Source: Candidatus Methanoperedentaceae archaeon (GTDB lineage Archaea; Halobacteriota; Methanosarcinia; Methanosarcinales; Methanoperedenaceae). From it: a stretch of DNA of 14,073 nucleotides. The stretch's first letter is position 1, and each line of letters opens with the position of its first letter. Position numbers and translations under genes: made by a program. The notes under the pieces were generated by a model. It had not been told where the DNA came from. It did not search any database and saw only the letters and a program-made list of their open reading frames with translations. Below, piece by piece: positions 3,371-14,073 of this stretch. The stretch is taken from contig DAHXMQ010000174.1 of NCBI GenBank assembly GCA_027371625.1, forward strand, positions 1 through 14,073, given 5' to 3'.

Positions 3371-3448
3371 ATGGTGATTAAATATTTATAAATATTTATA
3401 AATGTTTATCGCACCATTAAATACCGTTAAACATTTTTACTAAAGTGT
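3371..3448 (+). promoter_or_regulatory. AT-rich promoter/control region with dyad and shared virus motif
   Basis: This is the longest intergenic gap in the first half. It holds several TTTATAAA-like TATA candidates at 3381-3410, a second TATA-like ATTAAATA at 3417-3424, and a 7-bp dyad (AATGGTG 3370-3376, CACCATT 3412-3418) around the tandem repeats. Motif AACATTTTTACTAAAG begins at 3430, exactly 19 bases before the ATG. GTTAAATGGTGA occurs at 3366 and also at 3334 inside the preceding gene. I see no good ribosome binding site before ATG 3449, so a short-leader or leaderless transcript is likely. Confidence 0.7.
3381..3410. repeat. Three tandem 10-bp AT repeats
   Basis: AATATTTATA occurs at 3381-3390 and again at 3391-3400, followed by a diverged copy AATGTTTATC at 3401-3410. 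A 10-bp unit puts each copy on the same face of the helix. The tract could act as multiple TATA elements, an unwinding element or a site for a cooperative regulator. Confidence 0.85.
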
Positions 3449-4802: not shown

Positions 4803-5286
4803 TGAGCGGGACATAGATTCCATCCTTAAGGAATTTAACGCCTCAGCAGAGGCAGCACCCCAGCAGCCAGCAGCCGTTGAGCACATCTTAACGCCAGAAA
4901 ACTTAACGCATTCTCTTGCGTCGCTTACCAAGATGCTCGCCAGGAAACTGGATATGCCTGAGATTGCGCTGACGCCAGACGATGAGGAAGATTTGACCAA
5001 CGCCCTCAAGCCGTTTGCTGACAAGCTGGATTTGCTCATAAAGTACTTACCATATCTGCCTCTTGGCATATTCGCAGCAGGCTATTCCATCCGCGTATAT
5101 TCTGGAGTAAAACGGAAGAGCGACGAAAAGAAGGCAAGCAAAATCGCCAGCCGCGACAAGGCAGCGCAGGCAATAGCCAAAGAAAAGGTTGATGCTGCGC
5201 AGAAGCAGGATGCCGAAGCCAGCAAAGCAGCAGCTGAGAAGGAAATAAAAGGAGGGCAGGCGAATGAACAACCTGCCTCCCATTGA
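4795..5286 (+). CDS. Membrane protein with long charged Ala/Lys-rich C-terminal helix
   Basis: This 163-residue protein has an acidic N-terminal region (1-80), a hydrophobic segment YLPYLPLGIFAAGYSIRVY (about 84-102), and a C-terminal 60 residues dominated by Lys, Ala, Glu and Gln that should form a long helix or coiled coil. The start overlaps the upstream stop region by 8 bases, and its own end overlaps the ATPase gene by 23 bases. A membrane anchor with a cytoplasmic coiled coil next to a packaging ATPase could be a docking or scaffold protein, but this is inference from context. No family is recognised. Confidence 0.85.
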   Translation: MSDERDIDSILKEFNASAEAAPQQPAAVEHILTPENLTHSLASLTKMLARKLDMPEIALTPDDEEDLTNALKPFADKLDLLIKYLPYLPLGIFAAGYSIRVYSGVKRKSDEKKASKIASRDKAAQAIAKEKVDAAQKQDAEASKAAAEKEIKGGQANEQPASH

Positions 5287-5866
5287 CATCTCTGACAAGG
5301 TAGTTATCCTGGGCTATAGCGGGTCTGGGAAATCTACGCTGCTTGGCTGGCTCCTCAAGACAATTAAGCTGCGCCCGCTGTACATCGTTGACACCGTTAA
5401 CATCTACTCAGCGGTGCCTTCGTACAATTATTCCGGCACCACCAAATGCAACAACCCGGCTAAGGGCAAAATATGCTTGAAGCTGCATACGCCGGAGCAG
5501 TTTGAAGCATTATTGACCTACCTCAACCACAAAAAAAGCAATTTTTTCCTGGCAGTCGACGAAATCGACAGGTACTGCGACGTATGGCACCTCACCACCG
5601 AGGTTAAGCTTTACCTCGAGGAAGGGCGCAATTTCGGCAGAGGCGGCATATTTACCGTTCGCCGGGTAGGGTTCCTTAACAAGAGCATACTGGGCAATGC
5701 CCATTACCTTTACCTTTTCAAGTCAAATAACGCAAGGGATTTGCAGTACCTTGAGCAGATAACCGGGCTTGATTTATTTTCCCTTAAATATTCGCAGGAG
5801 CACGCGTTCCACGTGATAGATTTGCACAATTCGCGGGACCTGGGGGAATTTGCCCTCAAGCTGTGA
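5264..5866 (+). CDS. FtsK/HerA-superfamily (A32-like) packaging ATPase
   Basis: The 200-residue P-loop ATPase starts at ATG 5264 behind AAAGGAGGG. Walker A is GYSGSGKST (G17 to T25, K23) and Walker B is FFLAVDEID (D99-E100). A following FGRGGIFTVRRVG has the position of the sensor/arginine region of HerA-like motors, and a conserved-looking ILGNAHYLYLF strand follows. The size matches the minimal packaging ATPases of small membrane-containing and spindle-shaped archaeal viruses and their bacterial tectivirus relatives; these translocate the genome into preformed particles. It ends 33 bases before the virion-protein block starts. Filamentous-phage Zot-like assembly ATPases are the main alternative within the same superfamily. 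The superfamily call is strong; the packaging role is inferred from context. Confidence 0.85.
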   Translation: MNNLPPIDISDKVVILGYSGSGKSTLLGWLLKTIKLRPLYIVDTVNIYSAVPSYNYSGTTKCNNPAKGKICLKLHTPEQFEALLTYLNHKKSNFFLAVDEIDRYCDVWHLTTEVKLYLEEGRNFGRGGIFTVRRVGFLNKSILGNAHYLYLFKSNNARDLQYLEQITGLDLFSLKYSQEHAFHVIDLHNSRDLGEFALKL

Positions 5867-8465: not shown

Positions 8466-10142
8466 ATGTCCCTCTATAATTTTTCTGTCGCCCCAGGCGA
8501 AAATTCGCAAATACCAAACGTCTGTGCCAGCGGTTATGTAAAAAATAACAGCAGCACTGCAATTGCAACATTCGTGATATACAGCGAACGCAATGCTACG
8601 CTTAATAAAACGCTTTCACCGCAGCAGGCATTCAACTTCACTAATTTATACATCCTGAGAATCCTTAACACTTCGGCAGATTCGTCGTGCATCCTGGACG
8701 TTATTTTCTCAGACACCAGCGCATTTTCGGCAACAGAATCTGAAAGCGTAATCCAGCTTGGGTCCCTGGGCAGCTCACTGGGCAATATCCCCATAGAGAT
8801 TGCAGCTAACAGCTTGGGGAATATCCCAATAAGCATTGACGCAACAAACATAACCGGGAATATCCCCATAGAAATCGTTGCAAACAGCTTGGGGAATATC
8901 CCCATAACAATAGCTGCAAGCACCATAACAAGCCTTCCAATTGAAATTGTCGCCAACAGCCTGACAAGCCTGCCAATACAGATTGTTTCGCTTGGCAGCA
9001 CATTGGGAAACATACCAATAGAAATAGCTGCCAACAGCATCGGGAATATCCCCATAGAGATTGCATCTAACAGCTTGGGGAATATCCCAATAACATTAGC
9101 GGCAAACACGGTTGGAAATTTGACAATAGACATAGCCGCTCAAAGTGTGGGTAATCTTAATACGGACATTGGTAATTTCAGCACAGACCTGCAGGAAAAC
9201 CAGACAAGCGGCACTAACACATTGACGTACAATCCATGGGGATTTTCTACAAGTGTGAATCCAGCGGTTCTTGCAACTGGGTCAACCTTTAGGTACTGTA
9301 TGATTCAGCAAAACGGTGCGGCTGGATATCCAATATTCTATTTTAATGTAATTAACCCCACATCATCAAGTGCATCTGCAAATATTACGGTATATCTATA
9401 TGACCATTTACCTGAAGGCGGTCCATCAACTACGCCTATAAACCAGTTTACATTTTCAACCGGCACACTTGCCGCAGGTGCTCAGGTGTGGGTTACTGTG
9501 CAACCAAACATATACTGGGCATACAATACTTTAGCCGTCATCCCGCAAGTTATAACTGGCACAGGTGGTTCAGAGATAGGCGTGGTATTACCTGCTTCAG
9601 CAAATTATATAGATGCACATTTCTGGAATGGTACTTACTGGAACAGTTTGGATTATGGCTTTGTCGGATTCTGGTCAATAACCAACACCGCACCCGCATC
9701 ATTACCAGTAGCCGTCACCAATCCCATAAAGGTAAGCGAAGGCAACGCCGCAAGCGTAATATCATCAACCAAAACATCCAACGCCATAATAGGTACTGTG
9801 CCAAACGGCAAGAAATGGAAAATACTAAGGGCATACATAACTATAACTGCCAGCTCAACGGCAACATGGCAAGCATCTATAGCTATATTACCAAACGGTA
9901 CATCGTCGAATACTTACGAAAATCTTGCCTATGTCAATGTATCAGCAACAATTAATGATGTATATAACGGTATTGGTACAATCACAGGCAATATTGGAGT
10001 TACCTATGGCAACAATGTTCAGGTACAAATGTGGAGCGATTATCCCATACTGTATGCCGGCGATGCTATAGCAGTTTTCAATAATAATGGACTTACAGAC
10101 GCATATAAATACATGGTTTGGTATGTGGAGAGTGATATTTAA
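8466..10142 (+). CDS. Large repeat-containing fibre/spike-like protein
   Basis: The 558-residue protein, the largest after the polymerase, starts behind GGAGGGAG. Residues 1-103 look like a beta domain. Residues 104-238 are eleven 12-13-residue repeats of consensus SLGNIPIEIAAN. Residues 239-558 form a large beta-rich C-terminal part rich in Asn, Thr, Ser, Tyr and Trp, with many Asn-x-Ser/Thr sites. A short regular repeat with alternating Ile suggests a beta-solenoid or trimeric beta-fibre shaft, and the C-terminal half would be the distal, receptor-binding part. There is no signal peptide or membrane helix. The last half is visibly more AT-rich than the flanking genes, as expected for an exchanged host-range domain. 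The structural role is inferred from architecture and position; no homologue is claimed. Confidence 0.85.
   Translation: MSLYNFSVAPGENSQIPNVCASGYVKNNSSTAIATFVIYSERNATLNKTLSPQQAFNFTNLYILRILNTSADSSCILDVIFSDTSAFSATESESVIQLGSLGSSLGNIPIEIAANSLGNIPISIDATNITGNIPIEIVANSLGNIPITIAASTITSLPIEIVANSLTSLPIQIVSLGSTLGNIPIEIAANSIGNIPIEIASNSLGNIPITLAANTVGNLTIDIAAQSVGNLNTDIGNFSTDLQENQTSGTNTLTYNPWGFSTSVNPAVLATGSTFRYCMIQQNGAAGYPIFYFNVINPTSSSASANITVYLYDHLPEGGPSTTPINQFTFSTGTLAAGAQVWVTVQPNIYWAYNTLAVIPQVITGTGGSEIGVVLPASANYIDAHFWNGTYWNSLDYGFVGFWSITNTAPASLPVAVTNPIKVSEGNAASVISSTKTSNAIIGTVPNGKKWKILRAYITITASSTATWQASIAILPNGTSSNTYENLAYVNVSATINDVYNGIGTITGNIGVTYGNNVQVQMWSDYPILYAGDAIAVFNNNGLTDAYKYMVWYVESDI
8775..9179 (+). repeat. 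Eleven tandem 36-39-bp repeats coding the SLGNIPIEIAAN shaft
   Basis: Codons 104-238 divide into eleven units without remainder: eight of 12 residues and three of 13. Position 5-6 is nearly always Ile/Leu-Pro and alternate residues are Ile. At DNA level the near-palindromic core GGGAATATCCC recurs at least five times. Units 5-6 (TSLPIEI) form a variant subfamily, and the last two units are degenerate (GNLTIDI, GNLNTDI). Such DNA is prone to copy-number change. Confidence 0.95.
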
Positions 10143-11354: not shown

Positions 11355-11384
11355 GGTTATAATGTAAGGGGTAATTTATTTTTA
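11345..11384. terminator. Bidirectional A/T-run terminator between convergent units
   Basis: The 27-base gap and its edges hold a run of seven A at 11345-11351, which reads as T on the leftward transcript, and TTTATTTTTA at 11375-11384 for the rightward one. Archaeal termination needs mainly T-rich tracts, and both directions have one at the convergence point. Confidence 0.55.
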
Positions 11385-11591
11385 CTCGGCAGCAAGCCGC
11401 TCGTCAGCAGTTTTATCTTCCACGTATGCGTCTATGGCAGATACCACGGAACCAAGAGCCAGCATTGCCACGCCAGCCTTGTGCCCGTTAAGCAGCGCAG
11501 CAATCTTTATTGCCAGTTCGTACGCTTCTTTGCTGTCGTCGTCGCTTATTTTCACGTGTCCAGGTTCTTCAGCTGTGATTTCTATCACCAT
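11382..11591 (-). CDS. Small acidic helical protein, unknown function
   Basis: This 69-residue acidic protein has a short strand region (MVIEITAEEPGHVKIS) followed by helices (EAYELAIKIAALLNG and AGVAMLALGSVVSAIDAYVED). The second is apolar but short and flanked by acidic residues, so a soluble helical bundle is more likely than a membrane span. It overlaps the upstream gene by 7 bases and is the last gene of the leftward unit. No family recognised. Confidence 0.72.
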   Translation of the reverse strand: MVIEITAEEPGHVKISDDDSKEAYELAIKIAALLNGHKAGVAMLALGSVVSAIDAYVEDKTADERLAAE

Positions 11592-11749
11592 ACTGTTATG
11601 CCACCAGTGTATTTAAATTTTTCTGCAAGTTCTGCCAGGTGGTTTTCGCGGCTGCGCAAATCAACAAACACCGCCCAGTCAGCCAATAAGCCTGCTGACT
11701 TCTTGCCGCCCATATTATATACAAACAGCCGCGCAGAAAGATAATTCAT
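11585..11749 (-). CDS. 54-residue protein, unknown function
   Basis: ATG 11749 is chosen because it overlaps the upstream stop as ATGA and has GGAGG 8 bases upstream; the longer frame to 11854 lies inside the zinc-ribbon gene. The product has an alternating strand pattern (ARLFVYNMGG, LLADWAVFVDLRS) and one helix (NHLAELAEKFKY). It is too small for a confident fold call. Its tight coupling to the zinc-ribbon gene suggests they act together. Confidence 0.65.
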   Translation of the reverse strand: MNYLSARLFVYNMGGKKSAGLLADWAVFVDLRSRENHLAELAEKFKYTGGITVW

Positions 11750-11928
11750 TGCACCGCCTCCGAAAACGAAAACCCGCACGCCCGGCAGTGGAACCCAACA
11801 GTATCTGGCTCCGATAGTATCAAATCGAGGTAAGGCGAACCGCAGCGCTGACACACAGCTTCATTTATCAGCTTGCGCCTCCTGTGTGATTTCCCAGGTG
11901 GAACCACTGGCTTAGGGTTGAACGTCAT
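11746..11928 (-). CDS. Zinc-ribbon protein
   Basis: The 60-residue protein has a basic N-terminus (PPGKSHRRRKL) and then two knuckles, CQRCG (C26, C29) and CRACG (C48, C51), 18 residues apart: a C4 zinc ribbon. Such small viral ribbons usually bind nucleic acid or transcription components; the basic arm fits. It is joined by ATGA overlaps on both sides to unknown small genes. A transcriptional regulator acting on the nearby promoters is a reasonable guess only. Confidence 0.78.
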   Translation of the reverse strand: MTFNPKPVVPPGKSHRRRKLINEAVCQRCGSPYLDLILSEPDTVGFHCRACGFSFSEAVQ

Positions 11929-12122
11929 AGCCTTTTCACCATAATGTACTGCTTGGAAACACTCAGCACCTCGAGGTTATATTTCTCAACCGCTTCCTTA
12001 TAGTCCATGACACCGTCAAACAGGTGCCCGCTCACTATGGAAACCAAGGGGACACCACCTGGCGGCTCATACATCAGCCCCGTGCCCTTTACTTTACCTA
12101 TTACATATAGCATCTCTGCCAC
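11925..12122 (-). CDS. Small protein, first gene of the second leftward unit
   Basis: The frame opens at GTG 12122, which lies about 27 bases below a TATA box and would be translated leaderless; ATG 12113 is the alternative and would leave a 9-base leader. The product (65 or 62 residues) begins with strands (LYVIGKVKGTG, VPLVSIVSGHLFDG), then an AVEKYNLEVLSV stretch, and ends VKRL. It has no cysteines and no membrane helix. No family is recognised. An ATGA overlap couples it to the zinc ribbon. Confidence 0.7.
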   Translation of the reverse strand: MAEMLYVIGKVKGTGLMYEPPGGVPLVSIVSGHLFDGVMDYKEAVEKYNLEVLSVSKQYIMVKRL

Positions 12123-12139
12123 CCAATACTTATATCACG

Positions 12140-12178
12140 GGGAAGTATATAAACCTTTCAGCTGAAATAATACTTCCC
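12140..12178. repeat. Dyad symmetry overlapping promoter and the VWA gene end
   Basis: GGGAAGTAT (12140-12148) pairs perfectly with ATACTTCCC (12170-12178). Inside it lies a perfect 12-bp palindrome TTTCAGCTGAAA (12156-12167), off-centre by 2.5 bases. The structure covers the last VWA codons, its stop and the TATA box. It could be an operator for a dimeric repressor, a 3'-end hairpin of the VWA transcript, or both. Confidence 0.7.
12145..12153 (-). promoter_or_regulatory. TATA box with BRE-like purines for the small leftward operon
   Basis: Read on the minus strand, GAAAGGTTTATATAC contains the purine-rich BRE-like GAAAGG followed directly by TTTATATAC, a near-ideal archaeal box. Its centre lies about 27 bases before GTG 12122. 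It sits directly after the VWA stop codon. Confidence 0.75.
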
Positions 12179-13222
12179 AAGCAGCTGCGTAATTTTAGCA
12201 AACATGCCCCGCAGCGACTTCATTGTGCTCACAGCGATAAAATCTACACCAGAAAATGCCTTTGTGGTAGCAGCAACCTTCTTTTCGTCAATGTCGTTGT
12301 CGAACCATATAAGTATGCCGCCGCGCCTGTTTTTAGCTGCCATAAACATCTTCACAAGCCTGCCTGCCCACTTATCTTCAAACTCGGCATCAGTGATAAC
12401 TATGAGCGTGTAGCCGCTGCTTATGTACTTCTCCACGGTAAACACATTATCAAACAGCCCTGACGACCCGGCACCCACCTTGGCGTCAATGTCCTTGGCA
12501 TACTGCGACCCAAAGGCATGCAGCGCAACCACGGACCCAAGCTTCTCCAGCTCCTTCTTAAGAGTAATAGCAAGATTGCGGGCTACTGCATCTTTGAATA
12601 AATCCTTATTATTCTTAATAGCCTCTGCCGCCATGGACCCGCTCTTGTCAATAACAATCAGGAACTTACCGCGGTGTATTTTATTAAACCGGCGCTGCGT
12701 AAATACTGGGATATTTGCCTGGTTTTCTCTTGCCTGGATGTATGACTTGACATTTAACCTCCCCTGCTGCCTTGGGGTGCGGGATTTAATCATCAAATCC
12801 CTAACACCAGCCTTAACTGTGTTAATTATAACCGGCAGCTTATGGTACTCCCTGTCAACGAGAATATCTGATACCGCGTTTTTGCCAGATACCTGTTTGT
12901 TAACAGCTTTCTGCGTCTTATCGTCGTTATTCACAAGCTCTGCGCTTTTCGCTGCATCATCAAGCGCACCAGACTCATTCAGCGATGCGCGGATTTCTTT
13001 ATCTTCCTTGGTGCTGCCGCTCCCGCTGCCGTTCCCGCTGCGCTCTACTTTACCACCAGGACTAGCAACGCCACCAGAGCCAGATTTTTCACCGCTGCCG
13101 TTATCGCTCTCTTGCCTGCCGTTATCTTCATTATTGCCGCTGGCTGACAGCAGCCCGTTGAGCACATTAATCGCAGCAGCCGCCTCATTGGCAACTGCAG
13201 CAATTGCTTCATTGCTTACCAT
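12158..13222 (-). CDS. VWA-domain protein with intact MIDAS motif
   Basis: ATG 13222 is chosen because a GAGGTGG site precedes it; this gives 354 residues. Residues 1-26 are Ala-rich and helical. Residues 27-100 are a Gly/Ser/Asn-rich charged linker. Residues 104-180 contain a basic segment (SRTPRQQGRLNVKSYIQ). Residues 185-350 are a von Willebrand factor A domain: FLIVIDKSGSM gives D192, S194 and S196, followed by a GYT (T272) and LIVITDAEFED (D278). The MIDAS metal site therefore looks complete. The arrangement resembles the C-terminal VWA of CobT-like and MoxR-associated proteins, which work with a AAA+ ATPase to remodel complexes or load metals. The gene overlaps the peptidase-like gene by 14 bases. 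In Acidianus two-tailed virus a VWA protein and a MoxR-type ATPase are linked to tail growth, so a virion-maturation role is one possibility. Confidence 0.85.
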   Translation of the reverse strand: MVSNEAIAAVANEAAAAINVLNGLLSASGNNEDNGRQESDNGSGEKSGSGGVASPGGKVERSGNGSGSGSTKEDKEIRASLNESGALDDAAKSAELVNNDDKTQKAVNKQVSGKNAVSDILVDREYHKLPVIINTVKAGVRDLMIKSRTPRQQGRLNVKSYIQARENQANIPVFTQRRFNKIHRGKFLIVIDKSGSMAAEAIKNNKDLFKDAVARNLAITLKKELEKLGSVVALHAFGSQYAKDIDAKVGAGSSGLFDNVFTVEKYISSGYTLIVITDAEFEDKWAGRLVKMFMAAKNRRGGILIWFDNDIDEKKVAATTKAFSGVDFIAVSTMKSLRGMFAKITQLLGKYYFS

Positions 13223-14073
13223 AATTCGCCACCTCAGGCAAATCAACTGGCACAGAATATTCCTGGGCGATATCCATAATATTGCGGCGCAGTTTTACCA
13301 TATTTTTCACGATGTCGCCGCCTTGCAGGATATTGTTGCAGGCAGCAAACGCGTCCATTATTGGTAATCCGGTATCGCCAATATCAATGCGCTCCCTAAG
13401 CCAGTTGCGCATATTAGCGACCATGGGGCGCAGCGCTTCCCACATTCCGCTTAAAACGTCATCCTGCGCAAAAATATACTGCCTTACCAGTGAAAGGTAA
13501 GGCATATAGCTGGCGCGCAGCTCACCTGGTTCTGCGATGCCAAGCACATCCGCCTTCTCTGCTATTTCCTTCTCCAGGGGCGTAAATTCCTGCTCTGGAA
13601 TGAGCCCAGAGGCAAGCAGGATAAACCTGCGCAGCCTGTTATTAAGAGGCGTATTTGCTGCACCTTCAAGCGGGTGCTTCACCATGTATTCATTGATGCC
13701 CTGCCTGAACCCTGCGTAATGCTGCGACATATACCGGTTTATGCGGAAATCCTCAGCAATATTTGTAAGGGCGTGCGGAAACCCATCCCTATCGAGCTCC
13801 ATAACAGCCTTAAACGACGCCGAGATATGCCCGCTTTCATGCATCAGCAGCGCAAGCTGCTCCACAACGGTTTTAGCCCTTATGGTTATGACAAAGGTGT
13901 TTGTCTCCTGGTGGAACTCCGTATACGTTTCCCCCTTATCATCACCCTGCTGCACAGATATCTTAACGTCTGCATTGAGCACACGCGACATAACGCTAAC
14001 CCACGGGGCAGCAAGCTTATCTGGCTCAACCGCCTTAACGTCAAGGACGCCAGATATTTTCTGCTTTATGGCA
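13209..14073 (-). CDS. Metallopeptidase-like partner of the VWA protein (5' end beyond the window)
   Basis: The minus-strand frame is open to base 14073, so ATG 13991 need not be the start; at least 287 residues are visible. Counting from ATG 13991, LLMHESGHISA gives an HExxH zinc site (H51, E52, H55). About 25 residues later, NIAEDFRINRYM supplies an acidic pair (E80, D81) where a third ligand is expected. The rest is helical with no membrane segment. The order 'strands, HExxH, then N-x2-x-D-x3-N helix' is like the putative metallopeptidase domain (DUF2201 type) that is fused to or paired with VWA-like domains in cellular MoxR-associated loci. Here the two halves are separate overlapping genes. 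Whether it cleaves protein or is only a metal-binding scaffold is unknown. The promoter and true start lie past the window end. Confidence 0.8.
   Translation of the reverse strand, partial: AIKQKISGVLDVKAVEPDKLAAPWVSVMSRVLNADVKISVQQGDDKGETYTEFHQETNTFVITIRAKTVVEQLALLMHESGHISASFKAVMELDRDGFPHALTNIAEDFRINRYMSQHYAGFRQGINEYMVKHPLEGAANTPLNNRLRRFILLASGLIPEQEFTPLEKEIAEKADVLGIAEPGELRASYMPYLSLVRQYIFAQDDVLSGMWEALRPMVANMRNWLRERIDIGDTGLPIMDAFAACNNILQGGDIVKNMVKLRRNIMDIAQEYSVPVDLPEVANYGKQ

Follow-up and report, generated by a model that had tools for sequence, protein, structure and literature searches.

Two proposals have been made for viral CobS/CobT-like pairs. For haloviruses, in which cobST genes have been described, a role in cobalamin synthesis through host CobN was suggested (PMC8651126), whereas for jumbo phages, which combine a MoxR ATPase with a metallopeptidase-vWA protein, a chaperone-type role in virion assembly was put forward (PMC7824862); these and the other papers named here are cited from extracts. 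In ATV, the vWA protein p892 binds the MoxR ATPase p618 strongly and raises its activity (PMC4124505), the vWA gene of Hardycor1 adjoins an AAA gene (PMC7911831), and CbbO binds its target through a MIDAS (PMC4660213). A viral module of metallopeptidase-vWA protein and MoxR is already known from jumbo phages and haloviruses; what is new about the pair of overlapping genes analyzed here is its setting, in a small virus whose polymerase resembles that of MetSV. In the literature on viruses of Methanoperedens (Borgs and other viruses), no such pair was found among the matches listed, and the extracted main text of the Borg paper PMC12660748 does not mention MoxR, von Willebrand or CobT.

The stretch of 14,073 nucleotides analyzed here (the window) is an entire contig, ending at position 14073, from an archaeal bin of 1.91 Mb that is 69% complete. 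The bin is very likely Candidatus Methanoperedens, a name that rests on one protein because no MCR was found in a bin of this completeness. The protein is an ATPase of the bin (L012; PAN-like by eye) that shares 76-88% identity with proteins recorded under Candidatus Methanoperedens, which make up at least 12 of the matches listed. The contig looks viral, as it carries a B-family polymerase (869-2692; Pfam DNA_pol_B_2, E 1.4e-30), a packaging-type ATPase (about 5249-5866; phrog_2666, E 5.4e-17; MetSV ATPase by phmmer in a small ORF set, E 2.4e-5) and, by eye, small membrane and structural-looking ORFs. Binning alone would link it to a host, and we regard it as a possible virus of Candidatus Methanoperedens. 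The polymerase matched 42 records of the phage collection, 26 of them Bacillus phages; among the matches listed, Methanosarcina spherical virus (MetSV) had the top coverage and the archaeal virus LCBv1 the lowest E-value (3e-14), and phmmer on the small ORF set gave E 1.2e-12 for MetSV and 1.1e-19 for LCBv1. Judged from its MetSV, LCBv1 and Bacillus phage relatives, the polymerase would be protein-primed. For the packaging-type ATPase, tblastn against the phage collection was negative at E 0.01. Both genes are related to MetSV proteins and stand in the same order as in MetSV, the polymerase being related to LCBv1 as well.

The contig was without a near match in 50,697 phage records, and PADLOC returned nothing on the window. 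When the window DNA was searched for CRISPR spacers, with nine candidates scored for each genome, 7 of the 31 genomes of the genus matched, the bin among them; matches outside the bin were all short and weak, and a simple 22-mer test revealed no CRISPR array at nine checked spacer-candidate loci, two of which lie on the window's own contig. An exact 30-base pattern used for the missing end of the virus found no match in viral_contigs. The protein cluster of the vWA protein, P0001, holds 21 member sequences from 2 contigs, the longest of 16,436 bases, so that up to about 2.4 kb beyond the window may exist. Bases 1-88 reproduce 403-490 exactly in reverse complement, most probably through a fold-back artefact at the left contig end, which renders the start of the ORF at 3-257 unreliable. 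An ORF of 558 aa contains direct repeats at 8772-9139 with units of the type SLGNIPIEIAAN (five overlapping 107-nt copies were called), like those of a repetitive spike or fibre, and an AT-rich palindrome, TAAATATTTATAAATAT, occupies an intergenic position at 3379-3408.

Two overlapping leftward genes had been described at the right end of the contig, and both open frames were indeed found there. The metallopeptidase-like half, the CobT-like N-domain, is encoded at 13209-14072 on the minus strand in a frame that is open at its 5' end and has its first ATG at 13991. The vWA-like half (354 aa; 12158-13222, minus strand) consists of a Gly/Ser-rich N-terminal linker and a C-terminal vWA-like domain. 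The 14 bases of overlap (13209-13222, minus strand) belong to both genes, and a Shine-Dalgarno-like GAGGTG precedes the ATG at 13222 by 7 nt; this ATG is the likely start of the vWA gene, since the alternative TTG at 13246 is preceded only by a weak AGGA at 14 nt. The database copy of the vWA protein in P0001 also measures 354 aa. The ATG at 13991 lacks a Shine-Dalgarno-like site, as do 3 of the 19 rightward starts tested, and relatives of the peptidase-like protein carry extra residues ahead of the matching stretch (alignment A2), so that this protein may begin beyond the window. The overlapping genes are probably translationally coupled. Programmed frameshifting within the overlap, which would yield in part one fused protein, is most improbable: the two frames do overlap, homologues are often a single protein, and frameshifting in chlD is described in the title of a paper (Antonov 2020), but a Shine-Dalgarno-like site precedes the vWA ATG and other viruses have two separate genes. 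A plus-strand open frame of 314 aa (12423-13367), antisense to the vWA gene, is probably a shadow of coding composition.

Sequence comparison relates the first half to the metallopeptidase-like domain found at the N-terminus of phage CobT-like proteins. The HESGH motif behind its earlier description as metallopeptidase-like was located at 13827-13841 on the minus strand (read from 13841 to 13827) and is putatively zinc-binding and catalytic; a second conserved block, NIAEDFRIN, follows at 13737-13763 on the same strand. In alignment A2, H, E, H, N, E, D, I and G were identical in 9/9 rows, and the H, E and H of the first motif and the N and E of the second were kept in 10/10 rows of A3, some rows of these alignments having been collected via a pattern that contains the ED block. 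The second His of HESGH is 25 residues from the Glu of NIAED, which by gluzincin spacing is a candidate third zinc ligand; counted from the ATG at 13991, the zinc site would comprise His51, His55 and Glu80. We know of no reported peptidase activity for the CobT-like N-domain. With motifs picked after the sequence was seen, HExxH by itself turned up in 169 of 20000 shuffled peptidase-like frames, and HExxH followed by NxxEDxxI within 10-60 residues in none of 20000. The two motifs stand in the same register as in the N-domain of phrog_459-type viral proteins.

Profile searches with N-domains of different origin recovered the frame to different extents. It reached 22.6 bits with the profile built from eight viral N-domains (E 1.3e-5 in a set of 2966 targets; 5.9 for the highest of 2000 shuffles) and 22.0 bits with one built from two cyanophage sequences (highest shuffle 7.7). 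Five cellular sequences gave 7.7 bits (best shuffle 5.5), and a halovirus-only profile of 14 sequences missed the frame (5.9 bits; best shuffle 7.4). Mixed profiles yielded 20.8 bits for halovirus plus cyanophage (16 sequences; best shuffle 5.5), 16.3 bits for cyanophage plus cellular (best shuffle 9.3) and 24.5 bits for all 21 sequences (best shuffle 5.0). PHROG models matched the protein at one place, about residues 42-100 of its 260-residue reading: phrog_459 'peptidase' at E 0.0019-0.0021, phrog_1576 at E 0.022 and phrog_1314 'HNH endonuclease' at E 0.091. At E 0.1 the phrog_459 model itself matched 5 of 9 phage or virus records, with full-length proteins in Syn9, S-PM2 and P-SSM2, and had no match in HHTV-2, Hardycor1, HCTV-2 or G458. 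The homology leans on the phage branch because the halovirus-only model misses and phrog_459 matches only these five records. No phrog_459 match occurred in 246 genomes of the phylum, where the controls were silent too. A weak phrog_459 match in ATV (L042; NC_007409, 39933-40553; 14 bits, E 2.3e-4 for one genome) falls inside gp57, a structural protein of the virion whose coordinates give 653 aa.

The sequence-only reading had proposed a search of viral contigs for the same pair. No close relatives of the peptidase-like protein were detected in viral_contigs, phages, genome_contigs or the protein collection. Among the 600 pattern matches listed, a search with alignment A4 found at least seven viral contigs, all seven with HExxH-ED and LDWSGSM within one ORF and with T4-type phage-like neighbours by eye. 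BLASTP of the peptidase-like half against nine phage proteins (from those seven contigs, Syn9 and P-SSM2) aligned 60-121 residues at 30-39% identity, with best-segment E-values of 4e-6 to 1e-3 within that set, and the profile of these nine reached 22.6 bits on the frame (best shuffle 6.3). Ten proteins of 240-417 aa were matched by A2 in a search restricted to such lengths, and some of them come from contigs of 978-1801 bases, where they may be truncated. Of 149 genomes in the order, not counting the bin, 12 had cellular proteins matched by A2 (E 7e-6 to 9e-4), all 12 in family f5; no cellular HEVGH-vWA protein was found in the bin's own genus. Two cellular f5 proteins scanned in Pfam passed the cut-off for VWA only.

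Proteins of the phrog_459 type carry both domains in one chain, and two overlapping genes share them here. Among the virus loci read, three (HHTV-2, L030 and L034) are divided between the same two domains, and to judge from these sequences such a split is tolerated. In HHTV-2, whose cobT has been described as split (PMC8651126), gp2 and gp3 match two parts of one protein in HCTV-2 (gp79) and Hardycor1 (vwa).

The second half is likely a vWA domain: its VWA_2 match lies below the cut-off and the profiles of relatives fail, and two metal-site motifs fit, which leaves the assignment likely and unproven. An intact DxSxS MIDAS had been claimed for it, and the claim holds in part. DKSGS, the first MIDAS motif (DxSxS), lies at 12635-12649, and VITDAE, which contains the later TD and fits the last metal-site motif, starts at 12400, both on the minus strand in the vWA frame; the Thr motif could not be placed, and, read by eye, GAGSSG may offer a Ser in the place normally taken by the MIDAS Thr. 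Beyond the DxSxS motif, we infer a vWA fold. The sole Pfam hit of the protein was VWA_2 (E 0.0078 whole, 0.0028 for the domain alone; below the curated cut-off), and haloviral, cyanophage and cellular vWA profiles did not detect this half above shuffles, so that kinship of its vWA domain with the phrog_459-type family was not found. We assign a low probability to the idea that the protein is not a vWA protein at all, with DxSxS as a chance match and its place beside the peptidase-like gene as fortuitous. Such a reading agrees with the silence of all the relatives' profiles and with the 11 of 2000 shuffled versions of the protein in which DxSxS again followed a hydrophobic run, but the only Pfam hit is VWA_2 and starts at the very strand that carries the motif, and relatives have a vWA part behind the peptidase-like domain.

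Single-sequence AlphaFold models of the two halves (mean pLDDT 43 and 37) were too poor to show a zinc site, and Foldseek with both models returned no match at E 0.001 or better. The vWA protein had no close relatives in viral_contigs or phages; among 392 genomes of the phylum it matched only the window itself, and in the protein collection only its own copy. One match to it in genome G019 (L003) was dismissed as chance, lying over an ORF that is rhodanese-like by eye, with stops in frame.

As the sequence-only reading had remarked, the usual ATPase is not in view. The contig holds no MoxR/CobS-type ATPase, its sole Walker A frame of at least 60 aa being the packaging-type match. Downstream of the pair lie short minus-strand ORFs of 65, 60, 89 and 69 aa (11382-12122), one zinc-ribbon-like by weak matches below cut-off and none an ATPase, and beyond them a rightward gene terminates. 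Of 17 related loci, 10 encode an ATPase on the strand of the vWA part and downstream from it; the ATPase is annotated as such in HHTV-2, HCTV-2, Hardycor1 and Syn9 and recognized by its Walker A motif in L033, L040, L135, L136, L137 and L140. Five of the other seven (L031, L041, L138, L139 and L141) hold at most 1.5 kb downstream, and L030 and L034 showed no ATPase in about 2.3 and 4.2 kb with a pattern that also misses that of Hardycor1.

The 10 loci suggest a motor-linked role, and they count against a two-part protease in which the HExxH protein would cleave virion or host proteins while the vWA protein presents substrates, with no AAA+ motor involved. We consider this alternative doubtful. 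It accords with the missing ATPase, with the retention of H, E, H and the later Glu in every row of A2 and A3, and with the proteolytic processing also proposed for jumbo phages (extracts of PMC7824862), but the peptidase annotation of cyanophage cobT has been called mistaken (extracts of PMC8651126). A host motor may be available to the pair, because the bin carries a MoxR-like gene (L008; MoxR by eye), which exceeds the AAA_5 cut-off and adjoins a second ORF. Pfam AAA_5 had 11 matches in the bin, and the three loci examined (L008, L010 and L012; one MoxR-like and two PAN-like, named by eye) look cellular and were rejected as a viral motor.

Metal insertion, a role the sequence-only reading had included, is disfavoured. 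None of 31 genomes from the bin's genus had a CobN (PF02514) match; 19 of these genomes reach a completeness of 90% or more with contamination of no more than 5%. The control search matched in 5 of 14 genomes, including Methanosarcina acetivorans, and a scan of ten ORFs of the window yielded no CobN either. With the host taken from the bin, a cobaltochelatase would find no CobN in these 31 genomes, and a role in cobalt insertion is unlikely if Methanoperedens is the host. No Pfam CobT model matched up to E 1, which is a weak test, as HHTV-2 gp2 matches PF06213 at no better than E 0.77 and none of the further viral CobT-like proteins scanned matches it. It is quite improbable, then, that the pair forms a cobaltochelatase subunit, with viral CobS and host CobN inserting cobalt into the corrin ring and raising cobalamin during infection. 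The first half is homologous to phage proteins that are named CobT in viruses, HHTV-2 gp3 matches a PHROG named CobT subunit (E 0.0022), and the hijacking of host CobN by haloviral CobST is a published proposal (PMC8651126, in extract), but no CobS was seen on the contig and CobN was not found in the 31 genomes of the genus to which the bin points. Of the two proposals for viral pairs, a CobT-like pair on a virus-like contig binned with an archaeon whose genus shows no CobN favours the virion-assembly chaperone, if the host assignment holds.

On balance, we lean slightly toward the pair as a split co-chaperone for a MoxR-type ATPase, the two genes encoding the halves of a viral CobT-like protein. 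A CobT-like protein would here be split into overlapping genes for a metallopeptidase-like domain and a vWA domain. If the pair works in the manner of CbbO, ATV p892 and the metallopeptidase-vWA proteins of phages, the metal site of the vWA half would bind the target, most likely a virion protein or a host complex, and a MoxR/CobS-type AAA+ ring would remodel it, with the first half either docking on that ring or trimming for it. Such a motor would come from a viral gene past 14073 or be a MoxR protein of the host. The scheme presumes that the two halves associate and that zinc is bound, and its ATPase and target are likewise presumed. The homology of the N-domain and the same split in HHTV-2, L030 and L034 argue for a split co-chaperone; against it stand the contig without such an ATPase, the merely short ORFs downstream, the failure of the relatives' vWA profiles and of the halovirus-only N-domain model, and the poor structure models. 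Of the MoxR/CobT-like remodelling module first suggested, the peptidase half stands by homology and its pairing with a vWA half resembles known viral proteins; remodelling would fit, and metal insertion is disfavoured. More tentatively, and with less confidence than in the co-chaperone as such, we picture a small protein-primed virus of anaerobic methane-oxidising archaea whose split pair, with no CobS of its own, drives a host MoxR-type ring for particle maturation or the dismantling of a host complex. If true, in a host line without CobN, viral CobT-like proteins would serve protein remodelling rather than vitamin B12 synthesis.

Among known systems, the T4-type cyanophage CobT-like 'peptidase' (phrog_459; Syn9 gp150) resembles the pair in the order of HExxH and NxxEDxRI, in 30-39% identity and in the vWA part that follows. 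It differs in being a single protein of about 700-740 aa with a CobS-type ATPase downstream where seen (the Syn9 homologue, annotated as a peptidase, has CobS 0.8 kb downstream), whereas the window has two genes, no ATPase downstream and a vWA half that is not recognizably similar. Cellular f5 HEVGH-vWA proteins (L046-L054) likewise show HExxH, the ED block and DxSxS in order in the five of five read, but these are single frames of 781-1162 aa with 66-80 residues from HExxH to the ED block. The jumbo phage protein, compared by its description in extracts of PMC7824862, has the same two domains in the same order, but it is fused and has a MoxR ATPase named as its partner. ATV p892 is, like the window's second half, a viral vWA protein with DxSxS (DSSGS); unlike the window pair, it is not accompanied by HExxH in its own chain, and ATV encodes its MoxR ATPase. 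HHTV-2 gp2/gp3 likewise combine an HExxH/ED half with a vWA half in an archaeal virus, although HHTV-2 is tailed, has acidic linkers and an AAA gene about 3 kb downstream, and belongs to the haloviruses whose own profile misses the window protein. With this pair, the module of large tailed viruses would reach a small virus whose polymerase is MetSV-like.
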